Below are positions 4,107 to 59,864 of a DNA stretch of 64,000 nt, in pieces. A program made the position numbers and the translations under genes. Source of the DNA: Cheilinus undulatus (Eukaryota; Chordata; Actinopteri; Labriformes; Labridae); assembly GCF_018320785.1 (NCBI RefSeq), contig NC_054886.1, positions 2,629,177 to 2,693,176 on the forward strand. Direction: 5' to 3'. The notes beneath the pieces are model-generated. The model ran no database searches, was not told where the DNA came from, and saw only the letters and a list, made by a program, of their open reading frames with translations. Numbering within the stretch: position 1 is the stretch's first letter; each line of letters opens with the position of its first letter.

Positions 4107-4541
4107 CAGGCTGGTGACCAGCATGAGGAGAAGGTGCCAGGCTGGTGACCAGCATGAGGAGAAGGAGCCAGGCTGGTGACCAGCATGAGGAGGAGGTGCA
4201 AGGCTGGTGACCAGCATGAGGAGAAGGTGCCAGGCTGGTGACCAGCATGAGGAGAAGGAGCCAGGCTGGTGACCAGCATGAGGAGAAGGTGCCAGGCTGG
4301 TGACCAGCATGAGGAGAAGGAGCCAGGCTGGTGAACAGCATGAGAAAGAGGAGCCAGGCTGGTGACCAGCATAAGGAGGAGGTGCCAGGCTGGTGACCAG
4401 CATGAGGAGAAGGAGCCAGGCTGGTGAACAGCATGAGGAGGAGGAGCCAGGCTGGTGACCAGCATGAGGAGGAGGAGCCAGGCTGGAGACCAGCATGAGG
4501 AGGAGGAGCCAGGCTGGAGACCAGCATGAGAAAGAGGAGCC
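4107..4541. repeat. 31-bp minisatellite, 14 copies
   Basis: Fourteen head-to-tail units of 31 bp (consensus start CAGGCTGGTGACCAGC) plus a partial fifteenth. Variation is concentrated in the last ten bases (GAGAAGGTGC, GAGAAGGAGC or GAGGAGGAGC). Because 31 is not a multiple of 3, each frame cycles through the others, and all three minus-strand frames happen to stay open across it. Those long frames are by-products of the repeat. The array begins exactly where the transposase C-terminus should continue, so the unit was probably amplified from the transposon itself. Confidence 0.95.
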
Positions 4542-4970
4542 AGGCTGCTGTGGCTGTGTATGGTTCTTCCACACTGAGGTTCCTGTTTGTTAAATGAATA
4601 AATTGATAAATAGCTAATATGTCTTGTATCTTCAAACTTCAATCATCTAATCCACCAAACACCAAACACCAAACAAGAGTCAATGGCAGAATCAGCTGTT
4701 TGGCATTGGCAGAGAAGATTTGGCAAACTTTCATGGGTGCAACCCACATACTCAGCTCTGCTGCTCATCTTTCTAATGCATGTTCCTTACAAATGTGGCT
4801 CCATTCAAAAGGGTAATAAACAGGCTTTCCAACGGTATAAGATTTATTACCAAGAAGCATTGTTGCAAGAAAGAAATAATGTACCAAACACAAATTTACT
4901 TACTTTTTGTGCTAAGTTTATATAAATTTTTATATAGAGAGGATATGATTATATGGAGATATGTTTATAT

Positions 4971-5309: not shown

Positions 5310-5530
5310 TGGAGCAGGTCTTAGGATATAATCAGGCACCTGCCCATGAAGGGCTCTATAGACACAAACAAGGATCTTAGAATGAATTTGGAGGCTGATT
5401 GGGAGCCAATGTAAGGAAATAAAACTGGAGTGATGTGATCTGTCCTAGTGGACCTACTCAGCAATCTTCCAGCAGCATTTTCAACCATTTTTAACTGATT
5501 AAAGGGGGATTTGGGAAAATATAAAAGCAT
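5310..5530 (-). mobile_element. LINE (L2/CR1-like) 3' RT fragment
   Basis: The minus strand encodes N-A-A-G-R-L-L-S-R-S-T-R-T-D-H-I-T-P-V-L, recognisable as the 'NAAARLL..T....HITPVL' segment near the C-terminus of L2/CR1-type LINE polyproteins. It is short and broken. The flanking stretch to 6310 shows no other recognisable feature. Confidence 0.45.
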
Positions 5531-6310
5531 GAATGAGCATTTCTAACTCAGCGTGAGACCTGATAGATTTCAGTTTGGATGTTTCTAACATGATGAGACA
5601 AGAACGGGCCAGGGATTAGACATTTTGGTCAAAAAGTTCAGATAATCTACAGCATCATCTGTAGAAAACAATCACTGAAAAGGTTCACATTTGGCTTGAG
5701 ACTTCGCACTCTCATGAATGAATAGAGGGACAGTGCTTCTTCCTCTCTGACTGATCAGCTGCTGATAGATGATAATAGAGCTGGGGGAATTTCAATCATT
5801 CATTGATCAAGGATAGCTACAGATTATAATAAAAGAAAATAAAATAGAAACGTAAAGGATACACAAAGGAAATGTCACCGGCAAACGCCATATGCTTTAT
5901 GTTGCCTTTTATGTGGAATTAAAAAAGAAGTTTTTTGTAAATTCCAATATACCACGACTTATCCCGTGCTAATACCAACACCAAACAGTGAAGTGAGGAG
6001 AGCATTTCTATTTTTTTATCAGAGCTCTCCAGGTATTACTAATCCTGTATAATAGTTGAATAGGCTTACTTGGCTCAATAAGTGACATATTTTGAAATGT
6101 ATAACATACAACAGGACATATAAACTAGTGTAATGTTGGGAATAAAAATGCCTTTATTATAAGGGCCCCTTGAGAATGCTCTGCCCCTTTTCTCATTTCT
6201 GGTTTTATTACCAGGATATCAGAGAGAAACATGTGGGGACTGTGACAACTCTAGTTCTGAAGACACAAAGAGCTAAATCCTGACAGTTCAGAGGTTAAAG
6301 AGAAGTTCTC
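5531..6310. other. NLR first intron, 5' end: nothing recognised
   Basis: AT-rich intronic sequence without an open frame or clear repeat boundary. The splice donor of NLR exon 1 lies at 6313-6314. Confidence 0.4.
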
Positions 6311-28074: not shown

Positions 28075-28380
28075 CCTACAAAAAGGTTGCCGGCTACCCA
28101 AGGTTTGGGGCCAGGAAGAACCAACATCCAGCATTTAGGGAGGAGTTTCTGGAGAGTGATGGTATCAGAGTGAAGGAGCAGGTACTGCACACTCACACTA
28201 GGCCATCAGGACCGTGTCTGGGCTCTTTTGAGCCTAAAGTCCAGAACATTTGACCATTGAGAGTACATTTGTTCCATGCTTGAGGACGGCATGCTTCACT
28301 GCCCCAACACTGAAGGATGAGGCATGGCACGAAGCAAATGTAGGAGCACAACAAGGGGAAATGTGACATAAATGTAAATA
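28075..28380. repeat. Inverted segmental duplication, left arm outer part (partner 61143-61400)
   Basis: GCCGGCTACCCAAGG through CCAGAACATTTGACCATTGA and TTCACTGCCCC matches the reverse complement of 61143-61390 at about 90% by eye. It continues to GGCATGGCACGAAGCAAATG, whose partner is 59899-59930 on the other side of the hAT insertion at 59935-61142. This establishes that the duplication reaches upstream of the zinc-finger promoters. Confidence 0.85.
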
Positions 28381-28448
28381 TAGGCCTGTTTTGGATCTAA
28401 ATATAGACTTGTTTTGGCAGTAAATATTGGTTGTTTTGGCTGTAAATA
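28381..28448. repeat. 23-bp minisatellite remnant, left piece
   Basis: Three degenerate units (AATATAGGCCTGTTTTGG, AAATATAGACTTGTTTTGG, AAATATTGGTTGTTTTGGC) are the reverse complement of the large array at 56147-59864. The array was cut by the Tc1 element that follows and resumes at 30058. Confidence 0.85.
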
Positions 28449-30057: not shown

Positions 30058-30150
30058 TATAGGCCTGTTTTGGCTGCAAATATAGGCTTGTTTTGGCTGT
30101 AAATATTGCTAGTTTTGGCTGTAATTAAAGGCTGGTTTGCATGTGTTACA
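30058..30150. repeat. 23-bp minisatellite remnant, right piece
   Basis: Four units (TATAGGCCTGTTTTGGCTGC, AAATATAGGCTTGTTTTGGC and similar) continue the array interrupted by the Tc1 insertion. They sit next to the promoter-proximal block of gene A, exactly as the large array does for gene C. Confidence 0.85.
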
Positions 30151-33960: not shown

Positions 33961-34517
33961 GATAAATTAGCCTATTAAAAAGTCCATCTCTATCTGTTTA
34001 AATCTCACAGAGCATTACTTCACATTCAAAGATTCTGATATTAGATTAGGATTATCAATTCTCATTTTACATCTGGGAGAAGAGGAGGGAGGAAAAAGAG
34101 AGCACGTCGGTGTTTTTGAAAGAGAAAATAGAGAAACTTCATTTGATCCCCTGCCTTGATTTAACCTGTTTTACTAGTATTATTCACTTCTACCGCTCCT
34201 GTTAACGTCTCCTTATAAACCTGTTTTATTTTAGACTTGAAGCATTTTGACAAGGGATTGACTGAAGCACAGCAGAGGCGCATGCTCCACTCGTTGTGCG
34301 TATATTTTGGTCATGAAGGAAGAATTTGTGAATCAGTTTTTTACCCATATCACTGACTCCTACCAGGAGGCCATTTTTGTTGCAGTGGTATTGAAAAGTG
34401 TATCAGTTTGACATTGAAAACACTGCTATTGTGACAACTCTCCTCCGCAGTAATGCAAAGCTGTCAGCTGAAGATCTCCACCATGACTGTTTTCTTTTCT
34501 GCTTCTTGTTGTTCTAG
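33961..34517. other. Intron of gene A, 3' end shared with copies B and C
   Basis: From about 34300 (TTTTGGTCATGAAGG) to the acceptor the sequence is homologous to 45895-46080 and to 53527-53690 plus 47730-47787. A '[15 protein letters not shown]' frame runs here in all copies but is intronic in A, where a stop precedes the acceptor. Confidence 0.6.
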
Positions 34518-35462
34518 AAACGGAGGGGCACGCCTCGTAGTCATGACTGTCAGCAGTGTGGTAAAGAGTTCTCTTCTTCATCACGTTTAAAGACGCATAT
34601 GCGAGTTCACACTGGAGAGAAACCATACAGCTGTGATCAGTGTGGGAAAAATTTTGCTCAAAAAAAGGAGTTAAAGATCCACCAACGAACTCACACAGGA
34701 GAGAAACCGTACAGCTGTGATCAGTGTGGTTTGGCCTTCTCTCAAGCAAGTGCTCTAAGGATGCATCAGCGTATCCACACTGGAGAGAAACCGTACAGCT
34801 GTGAGCAATGTGGGAAAGCTTTCATACATTCATCTGCACTGAAGAATCATATACGCACTCACACCGGAGAGAAACCATACAAATGTGAGGACTGTGGTAA
34901 AAGTTTCAGTCAGGTGGGTAACTTCAAGACTCACAGAAACATCCACACCAGAGAATTACTCTACCCTTGTCAGGATTGTGGTAAAGTCTTTACAAATCAA
35001 GATGCTTTAAAGCGTCATGAGCGTATTCACACTGGAGAGAAACCGTACAGCTGTGAGCAATGTGGGAAAACCTTCAGGCAACAAAGCAACTTAACAGTCC
35101 ACCAGCAGATCCACACTGGAGAGAAACCACACAAATGTAGACACTGTGAGAAAGCCTTCAGATGTCAACAGGACTGCATCACACATGAATGCATCCACAC
35201 TGGTCTGAAACCATACGTCTGTGGGGAGTGTGGGAAGAGTTTTGATAGGTCATCTTCACTTCGCCAACATGAACTCACCCATGCTGGAGTCAGAGAGTAC
35301 CAGTGTGAGCGCTGTGACAAAAGGTTTGTTTCAGCTCACAGTCTTGAGAAGCATCTGCGTATCCACACTGGACACAGGCCGTACTGGTGTGTTGGTTGTG
35401 AGAAAAGCTTCACATGGAGCTCTGGGCTGAAAACACACAAATGTGTCAAAAAAGAGAGCTAA
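34518..35462 (+). CDS. C2H2 zinc-finger protein (gene A), 11 fingers, intact
   Basis: The acceptor TTGTTCTAG precedes [16 protein letters not shown]. The exon then encodes 11 consecutive C2H2 fingers joined mostly by TGEKP linkers, ending ...THKCVKKES and TAA. With the first exon the protein is 320 residues and nearly all zinc fingers. No KRAB, SCAN or BTB domain is seen, as usual for teleost arrays of this type. Finger 5 ends HTRELL and fingers 8-10 have HTGLKP/HAGVRE/HTGHRP linkers. The last finger lacks the second His (HKC), so it may bind zinc as C2HC or not at all. Predicted contact residues (-1,2,3,6) include QKEI, QSAM, HSAN, QGNT, NDAR, QSNV and RSSQ. It probably acts as a nuclear DNA-binding repressor; the target is unknown. 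It is the only copy of three here with an uninterrupted frame. Confidence 0.9.
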   Translation, partial: KRRGTPRSHDCQQCGKEFSSSSRLKTHMRVHTGEKPYSCDQCGKNFAQKKELKIHQRTHTGEKPYSCDQCGLAFSQASALRMHQRIHTGEKPYSCEQCGKAFIHSSALKNHIRTHTGEKPYKCEDCGKSFSQVGNFKTHRNIHTRELLYPCQDCGKVFTNQDALKRHERIHTGEKPYSCEQCGKTFRQQSNLTVHQQIHTGEKPHKCRHCEKAFRCQQDCITHECIHTGLKPYVCGECGKSFDRSSSLRQHELTHAGVREYQCERCDKRFVSAHSLEKHLRIHTGHRPYWCVGCEKSFTWSSGLKTHKCVKKES

Positions 35463-44960: not shown

Positions 44961-45996
<1,036 letters not shown>

Positions 45997-46360
45997 TCAA
46001 TACCACTGCAACAAAAATGGCCTCCTGGTAGGAGTCAGTGATATGGATAAAAAACTGATTCACATTTTTTTCATGACCAAAACATCCACAGATTTCATTT
46101 TCCTGAGGTCAGTTGGCATAGTAACATGAAAATGTTTGTTTTTTGGAATTCAAACAACTGTAGAAGACTGGACTACTAGACTACTACAAGACAGGAGCTC
46201 AGTTACAGTTAGAGGAAACTACACCAAATAACTATGTCTAACCTTCCAGGACATCCAAACCTTTCTCACTGGAGCCAGAAAATCAGCTGCTCAACTCCAT
46301 CACATTGTCAGAAAGGAAAAAGTCAAACTTTAAATGTGTTGAGTGTAAATTCATTCCTAC

Positions 46361-47729: not shown

Positions 47730-48519
47730 CTGGAACAACAAGAAGCAGAAAAGAAAACAGTCATGGTGGAGATCTTCGGCTGACGGCTTTTAGTCCATGG
47801 GCCAGACCCCAAAATTTGAGGTATCGGTACCACTCAAGGTGGCAAAGGTTTGCGATAAATCTTGGAAAGGTCCATGTCTCTAGTTTATATTTTGGTGTGA
47901 TAACCTTTCCTCAGTGGTAGCTGAGTCATAGTTATCAGCTGATGAAGTCATCCACCCCCTACTGAAAATTGCCATTTTGATGCTGGTGCATATTCTGCTT
48001 TCGGCTCATGTTAAGGACATGTCAACACAAACAAGTGATGTGACTCTGGTTTACACTGTTCTCAGTGTTCAACATCCAAATAGACAAACAGAAGGACAAG
48101 ATGGAATAATTACTGACTATTTAAGTTGTCATTTTACCATCAGTATATATTGTTACTCTAAGAGTTAAGATAATTACTGTAATTAATTGTCCAAGCCAGT
48201 TTTTTAATTGTTCATGTTACTGGAAAGCGGTGCTCTACCTGAGAGAATGGAGGAGTGAAAGTTAGCACCACCAACATGTCCACATCAGTACAGTATGAAT
48301 AACTTTATTTTTAACAATCTGCAGAGCATTTAACATGAACACTCCCAGCGTAATCCAAGGGCCTGATTTACTAAGATCCCATGTAAAGAATACTAAATTG
48401 GGTGTGCATACCATATACCAATGCAAACTGTTCTCAGTGGTCAAAATCTGAATAGACAAATTTATCAACAAGGAATAATTACTGACTATTTAAGTCACCA
48501 TTTTAACATCAGTATTTTG

Positions 48520-50520
48520 TTGTTATATTTGTCTGATGAGGAGTGCAGTGCAGAAGTTCAATAACTAATTTTGGCTTATGACCAAAATGTCTGAAATCTG
48601 GCAATGTCCCCAAAATCCCATCCATCAATGACAAGCCATTCAACAGTTCAGTTAAACTTTTTGGCCACAGCCTCAAAGATGCAGCCACCATTCAGACATC
48701 CATGGAGGATCTGGAGACTTGGCTCAGCAACGGGCACAGGTCAGGACTGACCAGCAATCTGAAGTTGTGGATATACTAATAGGGCTAAACAATTTGAGAA
48801 AATAATCTAATTGCGATTTGTTTTTTACCCAATATTGTGATTGGCAATGAATTTGCGATTATTTAAGTTCCTCAAGTCATGTATTTTCCAACAAAAACGA
48901 TCAATAATTCATTCTAAACTATAAACAACACAATATTAGATTAAACTAGGGCTAAACAACTTTGAAAAAATATCTAATTGTGATGATTTTGTCTCATTTT
49001 GCAAATAGGATATGAACTGTTGTATTAAAGGGAAAGATCATTTTTACATAATGCCCATATTTAACAAGAAAAACATACAAAAATTAGAAAAATAGGATTT
49101 TTTGGTAAACTTTTCTAAAAAATATGCCACTAGAATGATTGCATGATATGTAATGCATAGCGTCTCTGCTGCAAAAAAAGGTTTTTAAACTGGTATTCTG
49201 ACACAAATTTCAGGTTAAAGGAATATGGCACTTTCTATGATTTGAAAATTGCAGCAGGTTATATTGCGATTTAATCTAATTTGCAAATAATTGTCCAGCC
49301 CTATATACTAATATGGCATCCTGCCCCAGATCCTTTGGCTGATAGTTGATGATGTACCTATCAAATAAGTAGATATGATGGAGGGAAAGCTCAGAATATA
49401 CCTCCACAGGTGGCTAGCTTTCCCATGAAGCATGAGCACTGTGTCTTTCTGAGGGAAGACTAACATCCTGGTAGTATCCTGTTCACAGCCACATGGGAGA
49501 GTCCAAGGTCATCCCACACCACAGAGGCAATACAGAGATTCCAAAAACCCCAAAGTCTAATTTCCTGGTACTGGAATTCACACAAGCTTAAAATGGAGTG
49601 GTGTCTGGAGACTGGAACGGCAAGGATGAGGCACAAGGCTATGGTTGGGTTAGTGGCAGTGGTCAATGATCAGGTGTGAGTACTTCTCTGATACCCCAGT
49701 AAGATAAAATGGGGGAAATGGGAGAACATTGTTTGTCCAGGAAGAGGTCAGAGCAGCAGGACAGCAGAACAAGAACATCAGGATGGAAAACATGAAGCTT
49801 CATGTGGCTTGGATGAGATGGGAGAGTACAATGCAGCGCAGGCTCACATGGAATGGCATCTGCCCATAGAGCATAATACTCCAATAATCCAAGCTCTTAA
49901 TGACAATTCTTACTAGCCCAGCAATCCTCCAGATTTTTTAGGCAAGTCCAGTACATGGTGTTATCTGCTCTGCTTGGAGAAAGAGACACAGAGTTCACCC
50001 TGAGCAGCTACCTGAAAGCCCTGAGGGATTGCTGCTATCATTTCTGCCATGGCCATGTGCTGAAGGAAGTTGCTGAGGTCTCATCACTCATCATGCCAGG
50101 GGATTATCAGTGTTCAGCACATATTGCAGCAACTTTATTGGCATTTTGTCTGAGGACAGCTTGTCCCAATAAATTTGACTATGCCCTCAGTACTGGGGAT
50201 TCCTGGAGGATTGCTGGAATCATGTGGAAAGGACTGAACCACTCAGTGGAAGAAGGCTGCAGAGCTTTCCAAGCCACAGTCTACAGAGTCTACATCCTGC
50301 AGAGCACTGGGGGCACTGAGGAGAACAACCATCCACTAAGAGGGCAGCAGAGCTTCCCAGACCACTCTGTTCACAGAGTCTACATCCTGCAGAGCACTGG
50401 GGTCACTGAGGAGAACAACCATCCACAAAGGAGGCTGCAGAGAAAGCCTCCATGTGGCTGTGGATGAATAGTATGATGGACTTCATCAGTGGTTGTGTTC
50501 ACTGGTGGCCATGTTCAATC
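48520..50520 (+). pseudogene. RLE-type LINE (R2/NeSL-like group), RT thumb to endonuclease, decayed
   Basis: Plus-strand landmarks in order: KPFNSSVKLFGHSLKDAATI, M-E-D-L-E-T-W-L-S (RT C-terminal region); Y-G-I-L-P-Q-I-L-W after the hAT insertion; R-M-R-H-K-A-M-V-G; YLKALRDCCYHFCHGHVLKE (relic of the zinc-knuckle and following 'CPKAL..GRY..RHD.VLK' stretch); E-E-G-C-R-A-F; and finally TKEAAEKASMWLW near the C-terminus. This order matches a teleost LINE family with a CCHC motif and restriction-like endonuclease. The 170-codon frame 49955-50467 is part of it, with a ~90-base direct duplication (TCTACATCCTGCAGAGCACT) near its end. Many stops. Confidence 0.65.
48780..49303. mobile_element. hAT MITE nested in the LINE relic, 524 bp
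   Basis: Ends TAGGGCTAAACAATTT and (reverse) TAGGGCTGGACAATTA, flanked by the perfect 8-bp duplication TATACTAA (48772-48779 and 49304-49311). The interior contains TAATTGCGATT and TTGCGATTTAATCTAA motifs. It splits the LINE frame between WIY and YGILP. Confidence 0.9.
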
Positions 50521-52379
50521 ATTTTTAACCACACTAAACATTCAGCGATGATCATTCCTTTGATGCAAAAAATGATTTAATCTCAAAGTACTTAGGTTCA
50601 TCATCCACAGCAAGAGGGAGTCCAGGCACAGCTCATAGCAGAGTCTAGCAATGTCTCCCAAATGCTCAGACTGCCCCACTAATCCATCCCATTTCATGCC
50701 ATATTTAAAAAATATCTGAAAATATTCCATTTTAGCCTTAAATTGACCAACTGTAGAAAACCATATTTAAACAATCTAAGTTTGATTGGTTGGCTGGGAG
50801 CTCTCCTCTCCCTGCTGTGGGAATACTTGGTTCAAGATATTTTACCACTGCTTGCAGTGACCCAGTCTTCAATCTCACTTGCCATTTATTGCTATAGTCA
50901 GACCAGCACTGACCAGCTGTTAGTGGTCAGTAGTACATGACGTCCTGCCTATTAGCCAGTGCTTCAGAAGACACAGCTAGCATGTTTGTGTTGAAAAGTA
51001 ACTGGCTCTCAGCATCCACACTGACTCTGCACTTTTGAGGAGTGCCTGTTTTATTTGCTGAGGTTTTAATATAAGCCATTTTTTCTTTTGATCTTCAAAT
51101 CAAATCTCACCATCTTCTCTGCATTTTATCTGTTGTTGTTTTTCTAACCAGCATTAACTTTCATAATTAAACTCTAGATCAGAGTGAACTAAAAGCCTAG
51201 TTCATGCTGGACACGGTACTCATACGCCCAGCTGAGATCATCTGATGACCAACTAATCCCAATTCTCCCCTCCCAGCCAATCTCAGTTCTTTCTCTACAC
51301 TCAATATTGTGTGGAGTCCTTTAAGACCTGCTGGAGCACTGGTGCTCCCATTGCATATCTGTCTTTAACTGCGGTTAGAATTGCAACTAAATGAGACAGA
51401 GCAGTAATTCTTTTTGCATGTAAAACCAGAGGAGTTGCAATGTCATATCAGACATTCAGTGTGTCCCACAGTACTGTTTCCTTTCAGAAATATCCTTCTT
51501 TCTTTTGCAGAAATGTAGTTAAAAGGACACACATCTAAAACAATATGCTAGAATATATTTCCGACCGCTGCCTTTTTCAACACCTCCTACTTTACATGTA
51601 TATGATGGCGAATGATGACATTTTGTCTGCACGAACCTATCAAGTTGTTTTCTTGCAGGTCACAAGTTGCACTTGTTATTGTTTCATCATGGCCTTCTGC
51701 AAACACATGTATGCTCAAAAGTCTCTGGCACACTTAGAGATTTGATTGCACTACTGTAAATAGTTTAGTTATTATAAACATGCTGTCTTTTTGCAAATTG
51801 AGCACAGTTTCATTTTATTTTTGTTTTTGCGTTCTATGGTAGGTCAAAAAGGGTTAGATATGACGTACTTTCCGTTAATTCCTGTTTGCATTGATGCTGA
51901 TGCACCACACTGCTGCTGGTAAAACTTAACCTCCTCCACCCCAGCCTCTTCCTTTATAGCATAAACATGCTACTATGGATTCATTGCTCTTTAAATAATT
52001 TAATGCATTAACATAAATGTATCTATCCATATGGAGGTTTCTTGCCATGTTCCCTGGAAAGTTCAAGCATGCTGCTTGATGAACACATGGAGCATTTTTT
52101 CAGCAGAGCCTTCTCTACTGATGGAACCGTATTTCCATTCTGCAATAAAATGGAAAATGTATGACAAGAGGATTCCTGACTGAATTGTAGTTCAATAAAT
52201 TCTTATTTCCCTCTCCATTAATTCCTCTAATTCCATGGTACTGGATTCCATTTTTTTTTCTTGCAGTCACTCTGCTTTATGTCCAATCTTTCTAGTAATT
52301 ATCAGTAAAACATGCAAACCTTGATATAAATACTACTGCCTCAACAGCCTTTGGGCGTGCTGTCATAAACACAGGTAGG
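50521..52379. other. Interior of the 5.7-kb element, unassigned
   Basis: No protein family recognised on either strand. Open frames are below 70 codons. The transposase expected for an autonomous relative is not here. Confidence 0.4.
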
Positions 52380-53747
52380 TCTCTCAGGTAGAGCACCGCT
52401 TTCCAGTAACATGAACAATTGAAAAACTGGCTTGGACAATTAATTACAGTAATTATCTTAACTCTTAGAATAAAAATATATACTGATGGTAAAATGACAA
52501 CTTAAATAGTCAGTAATTATTCCATCTTGTCCTGCTGTTTGTCTATTTGGATGTTGAACACTGAGAACAGTGTAAACCAGAGTCACATCACTTGTTTGTG
52601 TTCACACACCTGACCATATAAACTGATTCTGATTCCCTCAGCTGCTACTGCTAGCAGTCAGACACACTTCTCTAACAAGAAACAATCAGAAAATGAATGT
52701 TCAAACAGAAATACTGAGAGTAATGTGTCCTTACAGAATCACTGTGGGACTTAGTGAATTATTCTTTATGTTAATACAATAATTCTCTGTTTATTGTTTT
52801 ATTTTTTGTTATTTTCAGTTTTTTATGAAACAAGGAAAATACATTTTGTTTTTAAAATACAAAATTACCCAAACCAAAGTATACTGGTACAAATGACACT
52901 GATTTCTCTCAGCTGTCTCACATACCAATCACCATCTACCTGGACTAGGAGCAGATATTTGTGAGAATTGCGCCTGGTATTGGTCCACTTTATGGCTCAC
53001 AATAACAGCTCACAATGAAATAATATGGTTGTAAGATGCATTTCCTGAATCCTTATATCCATGTGAATAGTCCAGTGTCTGAGTTTTGTGTCCATGATGT
53101 TCCTAGTTGTCACAGAGCTAAAAGATAGAAAACAATTTAGGCGAAAATTGTGAAAAAAATGTGTATCAATGACTGTTTGAAAAGCTGCTGTTACCTCATT
53201 ATTTGTCAGAAAGAATTAAAATTGTGTTTAAATGAAAGCTTAGAGTGTCCCCTTTAAAATGATACCAAACACAATATCACAAAACATTGACAAATGTCCT
53301 TAACATGAACCTAAAGCAGAATATACACCAGCATCAAAATGGCAATTTTCAGTAAGAGGTAGATGACTTCATCAGCTGATAACTATGACTCAGCTACCAC
53401 TGAGCAAAGGTTATCACACCAAAATATAAACTAGAGACATGGACCTTTTCAAAAATTATTGCAAACCTTTGCCACCTTGAGTGGTACCGATACCTCAAAT
53501 TTTGGGGTCTGGCCCATGGACTATTTGCATTACTGCGGAGGAGAGTTGTCACAATAGCAGTGTTTTCAATATCAAACTGATACACTTGTTAATACCACTG
53601 CAACAAAAATGGCCTCCTGGTAGGAGTCAGTGATATAGGTAAAAAACTGATTCACATTTTTTTCCTTCATGACCAAAACATCCACAGATTTCATTTTCCT
53701 GAGATCAGTTGGCATAGTAACATGAAAATGTTTGTTTTTGGAATTAA

Positions 53748-56130: not shown

Positions 56131-56146
56131 GGCATGACTCATGCTA

Positions 56147-59100
56147 ACAGGCCTATATTTACAGGCACAACAGGCCTATATTTACAGCCAAAACAGGCCT
56201 ATTTCTACAGCCAAAACAGGCCTATATTTACAGCCAAAACAAGCTTATATTTACAGCCAAAACAAGCCTATATTTACAGCCAAAACAAGCCTATATTTAC
56301 AGCCAAAACAAGCTTATATTTACAGCCAAAACAAGCCTATATTTACAGCCAAAACAAGCTTATATTTACAGCCAAAACAAGCCTATATTTACAGCTAAAA
56401 CAAGCTTATATTTACAGCCAAAACAAGCTTATATTTACAGCTAAAACAAGCTTATATTTACAGCCAAAACAAGCTTATATTTACAGCCAAAACAAGCCTA
56501 TATTTACAGCTAAAACAAGCCTATATTTACAGCCAAAACAAGCCTATATTTACAGCCAAAACAAGCCTATATTTACAGCCAAAACAAGCCTATATTTACA
56601 GCCAAAACAAGCCTATATTTACAGCCAAAACAAGCCTATATTTACAGCCAAAACAAGCCTATATTTACAGCCAAAACAAGCCTATATTTACAGCCAAAAC
56701 AAGCCTATATTTACAGCCAAAACAAGCCTATATTTACAGCCAAAACAAGCCTATATTTACAGCCAAAACAAGCCTATATTTACAGCTAAAACAAGCTTAT
56801 ATTTACAGCCAAAACAAGCTTATATTTACAGCCAAAACAAGCCTATATTTACAGCCAAAACAAGCTTATATTTACAGCCAAAACAAGCTTATATTTACAG
56901 CCAAAACAAGCCTATATTTACAGCCAAAACAAGCCAATATTTACAGCCAAAACAGGTCTATATTTACAGCCAAAACAAGCCTATATTTACAGCCAAAACA
57001 AGCCTATATTTACAGCCAAAACAGGCCTATATTTACAGCTAAAACAAGCCTATATTTACAGCCAAAACAAGCCTATATTTACAGCCAAAACAAGCCTATA
57101 TTTACAGCCAAAACAAGCCTATATTTACAGCTAAAACAAGCCTATATTTACAGCCAAAACAAGCCTATATTTACAGCCAAAACAAGCCTATATTTACAGC
57201 CAAAACAAGCCTATATTTACAGCCAAAACAAGCCTATATTTACAGCCAAAACAAGCCTATATTTACAGCTAAAACAAGCCTATATTTACAGCCAAAACAA
57301 GCCTATATTTACAGCCAAAACAAGCCTATATTTACAGCCAAAACAGGCCTATATTTACAGCCAAAACAAGCCTATATTTACAGCCAAAACAAGCCTATAT
57401 TTACAGCCAAAACAGGCCTATATTTACAGCCAAAACAAGCCTATATTTACAGCCAAAACAAGCCTATATTTACAGCCAAAACAGGCCTATATTTACAGCC
57501 AAAACAAGCCTATATTTACAGCCAAAACAAGCCTATATTTACAGCCAAAACAAGCCTATATTTACAGCCAAAACAAGCCTATATTTACAGCCAAAACAGG
57601 CCTATATTTACAGCTAAAACAAGCCTATATTTACAGCTAAAACAAGCTTATATTTACAGCCAAAACAAGCCTATATTTACAGCTAAAACAAGCTTATATT
57701 TACAGCCAAAACAAGCCTATATTTACAGCCAAAACAAGCCTATATTTACAGCCAAAACAGGCCTATATCTACAGCCAAAACAAGCCTATATCTACAGCCA
57801 AAACAAGCCTATACTTACAGCCAAAACAAGCCTATATCTACAGCCAAAACAAGCCTATACTTACAGCCAAAACAGGCCTATATCTACAGCCAAAACAGGC
57901 CTATATTTAGAGCCAAAATAAGCCTATATTTACAGCCAAAACAAGCCTATATTTACAGCCAAAACAAGCCTATATTTACAGCCAAAACAGGCCTATATTT
58001 ACAGCCAAAACAGGCCTATATCTACAGCCAAAACAAGCCTATATCTACAGCCAAAACAAGCCTATATTTACAGCCAAAACAAGCCTATATCTACAGCCAA
58101 AACAAGCCTATATTTACAGCCAAAACAGGCCTATATCTACAGCCAAAACAAGCCTATATCTACAGCCAAAACAAGCCTATATTTACAGCCAAAACAGGCC
58201 TATATCTACAGCCAAAACAGGCCTATATTTACAGCCAAGACAGGCCTATTTCTACAGCCAAAACAGGCCTATATTTACAGCCAAAACAGGCCTATATTTA
58301 CAGCCAAAACAAGCCTATATTTACAGCCAAAACAAGCCTATATTTACAGCCAAAACAGGCCTATATTTAGAGCCAAAACAAGCCTATATTTACAGCCAAA
58401 ACAGGCCTATATCTACAGCCAAAACAAGCCTATATCTACAGCCAAAACAAGCCTATACTTACAGCCAAAACAGGCCTATATCTACAGCCAAAACAGGCTT
58501 ATATTTACAGCCAAAACAGGCCTATATTTACAGCCAAAACAAGCCTATATTTACAGCCAAAACAAGCCTATATTTACAGCCAAAACAGGCCTATATTTAC
58601 AGCCAAAACAAGCCTATATTTACAGCCAAAACAGGCCTATATCTACAGCCAAAACAAGCCTATATCTACAGCCAAAACAAGCCTATACTTACAGCCAAAA
58701 CAGGCCTATATCTACAGCCAAAACAGGCCTATATCTACAGCCAAAACAAGCCTATATCTACAGCCAAAACAAGCCTATACTTACAGCCAAAACAGGCCTA
58801 TATCTACAGCCAAAACAGGCCTATATTTACAGCCAAAACAGGCCTATATCTACAGCCAAAACAAGCCTATATTTACAGCGAAAACAGGCCTATATTTACA
58901 GCCAAAACAGGCCTATATTTACAGCCAAAACAGGCCTATATCTACAGCCAAAACAAGCCTATATCTACAGCCAAAACAAGCCTATATTTACAGCCAAAAC
59001 AGGCCTATATCTACAGCCAAAACAAGCCTATATTTACAGCCAAAACAGGCCTATATCTACAGCCAAAACAGGCCTATATTTACAGCCAAAACAGGCCTAT

Positions 59101-59864
59101 ATTTACAGCCAAAACAAGCCTATATTTACAGCCAAAACAGGCCTATATTTACAGCCAAAACAGGCCTATATTTACAGCCAAAACAGGCCTATATTTACAG
59201 CCAAAACAGGCCTATATTTACAGCCAAAACAAGCCTATATCTACAGCCAAAACAAGCCTATATTTACAGCCAAAACAAGCCTATATTTACAGCCAAAACA
59301 GGCCTATATTTACAGCCAAAACAGGCCTATATTTACAGCCAAAACAGGCCTATATTTACAGCCAAAACAAGCCTATATCTACAGCCAAAACAAGCCTATA
59401 TTTACAGCCAAAACAAGCCTATATCTACAGCCAAAACAGGCCTATATTTACAGCCAAAACAGGCCTATATCTACAGCCAAAACAAGCCTATATCTACAGC
59501 CAAAACAAGCCTATACTTACAGCCAAAACAGGCCTATATCTACAGCCAAAACAGGCCTATATTTACAGCCAAAACAAGCCTATATCTACAGCCAAAACAA
59601 GCCTATACTTACAGCCAAAACAGGCCTATATCTACAGCCAAAACAAGCCTATATCTACAGCCAAAACAAGCCTATACTTACAGCCAAAACAGGCCTATAT
59701 TTACAGCCAAAACAAGCCTATATTTACAGCCAAAACAGGCCTATATTTACAGCCAAAACAAGCCTATATTTACAGCCAAAACAGGCCTATATTTACAGCC
59801 AAAACAGGCCTATATTTACAGCCAAAACAAGCCTATATTTACAGCCAAAACAGGCCTATATTTA
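56147..59864. repeat. 23-bp minisatellite, about 161 copies, with higher-order structure
   Basis: The unit is CAAGCCTATATTTACAGCCAAAA with exact 23-base phase throughout 3.7 kb. Main variants are CAGGCC or CAAGCT at the start, TATATCT or TATACTT in the middle, and GCTAAAA. The first ~1.6 kb is mostly the plain form with HindIII-like AAGCTT variants; from about 57766 on, TATATCT and TATACTT types are interspersed. The trimer [G-type TATATCT][A-type TATATCT][A-type TATACTT] recurs at least six times, a 69-bp higher-order unit. No spacers, so it is not a CRISPR. Reverse-complement remnants lie at 28381-28448 and 30058-30150. Confidence 0.97.

Follow-up and report, generated by a model that had tools for sequence, protein, structure and literature searches.

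The insertion at positions 47791–53523 of the window (the whole analysed stretch of 64,000 nucleotides) raises the questions of what kind of element it is, what moved it, and why its two inverted arms differ in length. It is one copy of a dispersed family of non-autonomous DNA transposons, probably of a fish, and a real element of unusual shape. The best explanation of the family, which we hold to be very probable, is that its members move by cut and paste in trans and that the arms of each copy recombine with each other. The ends of the insertion read TAGTCCATGGGCC...GGCCCATGGACTA, TTT flanks it on each side, and within the window the exact 13-base end was found only at the two tips of the insertion, once per orientation. 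When the two ends were aligned with each other, element positions 1–235 paired with 5497–5733 (94.5%) and positions 230–456 with 4590–4816 (97.8%); the mirrored ends, coordinates and TTT flanks are thus as described in an earlier note on this DNA. The same note had put the right arm at more than 1 kb, the left arm at about 455 bp and the one-sided portion at about 690 bp, and the measured lengths (1144, 456, and 680 bp, respectively) agree. The features of the locus are as follows:

34302..34821, minus strand: paralogous empty site 1 (joined-flank alignment)
45586..46150, plus strand: paralogous empty site 2 (joined-flank alignment)
47788..47790, no strand: left copy of the target site duplication (TSD), TTT (flanks and empty sites)
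47791..48246, plus strand: left inverted arm, 456 bp, with an L-type end; about 680 bp are missing at 48020–48025 (arm alignment)
47791..47807, plus strand: 17-bp terminal motif TAGTCCATGGGCCAGAC, common to L-type and R-type ends (30-arm alignment)
47808..47817, plus strand: 10-bp block that marks L-type ends and is missing from R-type ends, its placement in a C-run being ambiguous by 1–2 bases (30-arm alignment)
48247..48412, plus strand: inner arm part as in copy E4, of which the window copy keeps the left one only (element 229–622 matches E4 919–1329)
48602..50100, plus strand: coding relic that we take to be LINE-like, in several frames with stops, split by the next feature; boundaries approximate
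48780..49303, plus strand: presumably hAT-like non-autonomous insert, 524 bp, with an 8-bp duplication TATACTAA at 48772–48779 and 49304–49311 (empty site in sister copies)
49304..52379, plus strand: remaining family core, about 85–97% to other copies (copy comparison)
52380..53523, minus strand: right inverted arm, 1144 bp, also with an L-type end (arm alignment)
52607..53286, minus strand: 680 bp of the right arm with no left counterpart in the window copy (arm alignment)
53524..53526, no strand: right copy of the TSD, TTT (flanks)

The flanks of the insertion, when joined, align contiguously to two other places in the window, 34821–34302 (84.5%) and 45586–46150 (82.0%). Both of these empty sites read AGCTTTGCATTAC, and the occupied site is GGCTTT[element]TTTGCATTAC. 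Four occurrences of the 12-mer GCTTTGCATTAC with at most one mismatch were found (two of them exact), against 0.48 expected per window. The left flank and its matches consist of arrays of 84-bp C2H2 zinc-finger units (labelled by sequence, not by library), and the empty site reported for two paralogues was confirmed in zinc-finger paralogues within the window itself. Two contiguous empty sites together with the TTT flanks directly show the insertion, its boundaries and the duplication.

A genome search with 121 bases around the left end as query gave at least 40 matches in the same genome (40 scored of 64 candidates, the window's two ends included, a selection that may favour younger copies). 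All 40 scored places fall in 33 stretches (L009–L041), which were examined for copies. In eleven copies, among them that of the window, both ends can be read and are inverted (E1–E10 and E11, the latter in L021), and the remaining ends have no readable partner inside the stretch examined. The copies are between 1.0 and 9.5 kb long. They are scattered over many contigs and share their ends and the 3-bp TSDs, but not their flanks. An exact 3-bp TSD was observed for 10 of the 11 copies (TTT, ACT, TGC, TAT, AAT, AGT, AAA, AAA, AAT, and TTT); the chance expectation is 1.8% per copy, and the probability of 10 or more such cases is about 3.7e-17. C17b, a twelfth copy whose left end is rearranged, was excluded from this count. 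The end search thus upheld the proposal that the element belongs to a family of non-autonomous DNA transposons whose ends are consistent. The TTT target did not hold as a family property, since the ten exact duplications vary in sequence and the signature is therefore 3 bp, not TTT. Nine of the ten fit WNW (37% expected for each, P about 9e-4), a pattern that was noticed post hoc on few sites.

The exception among the eleven, E8 (L017 431–1465), has no 3-bp duplication; it is flanked by CTA and TAG, and its flanks look inverted (CTACACTA and TAGTGTA). In the 9.5-kb copy E3 (L011:383 to L012:4772), part of the right side is present three times (96–98% alike), and each of two internal R ends is followed by a G-run on its outer side.

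Arm length ranges from 0.2 to 1.33 kb across the copies. The arms of E4 (1329 bp, 97.6%) and E9 (1304 bp, 97.7%) are long and closely alike, whereas those of the other copies are shorter or interrupted; E11 retains just about 28 bp of its R end and yet has a TTT duplication, so that long arms are either unnecessary or were lost after insertion. Compared with E4 and E9, the window copy has lost about 680 bp of its left arm, with a 6-bp overlap between the two pieces that match there; on the inner side of its right arm, about 170 bp are missing as well. The lopsided arms are accordingly private damage of the window copy, the left-arm deletion being absent from E4 and E9, and the asymmetry previously presented as a trait of the family does not extend to these two copies.

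The core of the window copy matches the other copies in pieces at about 85–97%, and outside the hAT-like insert approximately 3 to 13 of the examined loci match per 100-bp step. The relic at about 48602–50100 consists of peptide pieces in different frames and belongs to this shared core. We call it LINE-like because it presumably resembles LINE ORF2 proteins in their C-terminal part. No match of it in Pfam reached significance, and tblastx of the core against those loci of the 33 stretches that lie outside the listed family copies found no LINE relative. The site of the 524-bp insert, whose hAT label is likewise our assumption, is uninterrupted in four sister copies (E3, E4, E7, and E9), and relatives of the insert's ends were found, in pieces, in L023 and L029, which together mark it as a later, independent arrival. 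Among the copies compared, the hAT-like piece is private to the window copy and the LINE-like piece is shared. The family had been thought to carry both a LINE and a hAT relic; the first part of that claim stands, and the second does not, as the four sister copies show the empty site.

No transposase was recognised in the window copy, as already claimed: its core, translated in six frames, gave no Pfam match up to an E-value of 1, and its longest stop-to-stop frame is 187 aa. The nine other copies contain no recognised transposase of their own among frames of at least 75 aa, which were judged by eye only. Longer relatives encoding a transposase between the same ends were sought in the 33 stretches and none was found; nor was an autonomous partner recognised there among frames of at least 110 aa (L009–L028) or at least 130 aa (L029–L041), judged by eye, those of L033, L034, and L035 alone being also scanned against Pfam. 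The other frames in these stretches presumably include Tc1-, LINE-, and BEL/Pao-like pieces, which lie outside the paired elements. The sequence common to the unpaired loci is mostly family arms and core, plus flank matches such as a Tc1-like piece common to L021, L032, and L036. Rfam and a plasmid collection gave no match.

Two frames in these stretches are recorded for their own sake. The frame at L034 1485–2042 starts about 100 bp beyond a 1.2-kb family arm; its only Pfam match, AAA_33 (E 0.021), is below the cut-off, and we take it to resemble nicotinamide riboside kinase. At L035 6261–6698 there is a THAP-domain frame (Pfam E 3.8e-14), approximately 6 kb from an R-type end.

For a family of this composition, the explanation we prefer would run as follows. 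A transposase made elsewhere would recognise TAGTCCATGGGCCAGAC, the 17-bp motif at the tips, together with the adjoining inner sequence, and would join the ends to a 3-bp staggered cut; the target, usually a WNW site, would thereby be duplicated over 3 bp. In the ancestor, arms of about 1.3 kb would have enclosed a core that held a dead LINE-like fragment, probably with an L end on one side and an R end, devoid of the 10-bp block, on the other. In the window copy, a deletion would then have shortened the left arm and the hAT-like element would have jumped into the core.

The mover itself rather likely belongs to a known superfamily with 3-bp TSDs (AcademX, Zator, or an atypical lineage of PIF/Harbinger or EnSpm), perhaps catalogued under another name, a reading that is not exclusive with mobilisation in trans. 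EnSpm/CACTA elements have CACTA or CACTG termini and a 3-bp TSD, and PIF/Harbinger elements prefer a TWA target. The present family shares the duplication length with both. However, its 30 aligned arms begin with TAGTCC or a few changes from it, not with CACT(A/G), on which ground a typical EnSpm/CACTA element was rejected, and none of the ten TSDs is TTA or TAA, on which ground a PIF/Harbinger lineage targeting TWA was rejected. No partner transposase was recognised in L009–L041. Repbase, on the other side, sorts non-autonomous families by the length of the TSD and the 11 outermost bases of the termini, and the relevant passages of two papers state 3-bp duplications for Zator (PMC10045372) and PIF/Harbinger (PMC2213677) and duplications of 3 or 4 bp for AcademX (PMC10045372), Zator and AcademX being likened to the present family by TSD length alone. 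Neither 13-mer end was found in the open-access text searched; the 11-mer TAGTCCATGGG is present there in seven papers, none of which deals with transposons judging by its title. If the 10-bp difference between the ends has no function, this is an ordinary repeat family, possibly catalogued under another name.

If the arms, being long and inverted, recombine inside each copy, as the preferred explanation would have it, gene conversion between them should leave a copy's own arms paired in a tree. Such a tree was built, with up to 640 bp per arm, from 20 arms of 10 copies (E1–E7, E9, E10, and C17b); E8 and E11 were too short to be included. A copy's own arms are sisters in all ten cases, with support between 0.90 and 1.00. 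Measured by identity, an arm's nearest match is its partner within the copy in 8 of the 10 copies; the exceptions, E2 and C17b, are neighbours on one chromosome (C17), and each is nearer to an arm of the other. In a tree of 30 arms, each contributing at most 235 bp, the sister relation holds for 8 of 10 pairs but not for those of E2 and E5, and in the 30-arm alignment the own arm beats all others in 9 of 10 copies (arm a tested). Arms could also pair in the tree if both were copied from one template during transposition (foldback replication) rather than converted later. We consider this unlikely, since one-template copying would erase the difference between the unlike ends that persist in 8 of the 11 copies, and E4 retains its 10-bp end difference with arms otherwise 97.6% alike. 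Conversion within copies, by comparison, would keep a copy's arms alike and might sometimes turn both ends into L, as in the window copy.

The closest system in shape, and the nearest case known to us, is Galileo of Drosophila, which likewise has long inverted arms of variable length. This Foldback-like member of the P superfamily is described with long, variable terminal inverted repeats (1575 bp in one copy) and structurally changed arms, a transposase segment in some copies, no functional copies in D. willistoni, and a TSD of 7 or 8 bp with the consensus GTATTAC (PMC4168063). The present family differs in its 3-bp TSD, which does not agree with the 7–8 bp of Galileo and the P superfamily, and no transposase segment was found in it. 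It offers a clean set of insertions for measuring arm homogenisation, core flipping and unlike ends inside single copies.

The ends fall into two types. The 30 aligned arms (two from each of 10 copies, plus 10 single ones) share the first 17 bp; a 10-bp block follows in L ends and is absent from R ends, after which the sequences agree again. Eight of the 11 copies are L/R (E2, E4, E5, E6, E7, E9, E10, and E11), three are L/L (E1, E3, and E8), and none is R/R; C17b was scored R/R by script, a label that stems from its rearranged left end. When the L end of each L/R copy is set to the left, the core runs forward in E2, E7, and E10 and is reversed in E4 and E9, a small sample of five (E5, E6, and E11 lack the tested core piece). 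Crossing over between the arms would flip the core in this way.

The 10-bp difference may persist in eight of the 11 copies simply because conversion tracts would seldom reach a block only 17 bp away from where the homology ends; alternatively, selection may favour unlike ends. RAG/Transib signals have unequal spacers, and P-element ends are comparable; with these we liken the 10 bp, about one helical turn, in a more speculative reading. The block would be a functional left/right label for the transposase of an undescribed superfamily, surviving in 8 of 11 copies, despite homogenisation elsewhere in the arms, as synapsis would need one L and one R. We regard this reading as improbable. If the difference were functional, the family would add to the few transposons with ends unequal by one turn. 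We also think it improbable, taken by itself, that the family belongs to an undescribed transposase superfamily characterised by TAG...CTA ends and 3-bp duplications. We know of no superfamily signature that combines such ends with a weak WNW target and a 10-bp end difference, which argues for it; the lack of a match nevertheless means little after a single genome search.

Against the preferred explanation of trans-mobilised copies with recombining arms we count the absence of a TSD in E8, the arm identities of E2 and C17b, the 8 of 10 sister pairs at up to 235 bp, an orientation count of five, the failure to find a source of transposase, and the single end-based genome search (40 scored of 64 candidates). 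An inverted segmental duplication in a zinc-finger cluster, in place of a transposon, is extremely improbable: duplicated zinc-finger exons do surround the insertion, and on its contig four copies of the end, at 2.75–2.91 Mb, have common flanks, but the dispersal of the family over many contigs, where the flanks differ while the ends and the 3-bp TSDs recur, rules it out as the cause of the window feature.

These four copies of one transposon end on C22 (in L025 and L026, at 2.89–2.91 Mb, and in L027 and L028), with near-identical flanks (AATGAYGTCATA), are one segmentally duplicated locus. From about position 5716 to its end, L026 contains a tandem array that, by eye, is like one in the window at 56146–59864, where approximately 162 copies of a 23-bp unit (AACAAGCCTATATTTACAGCCAA) match at 95%. 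Short arrays similar to this 23-bp unit lie on the other strand of the window at 28373–28448 and 30058–30138, and a 31-bp tandem repeat of about 14 copies (93% matches) occupies positions 4107–4547.
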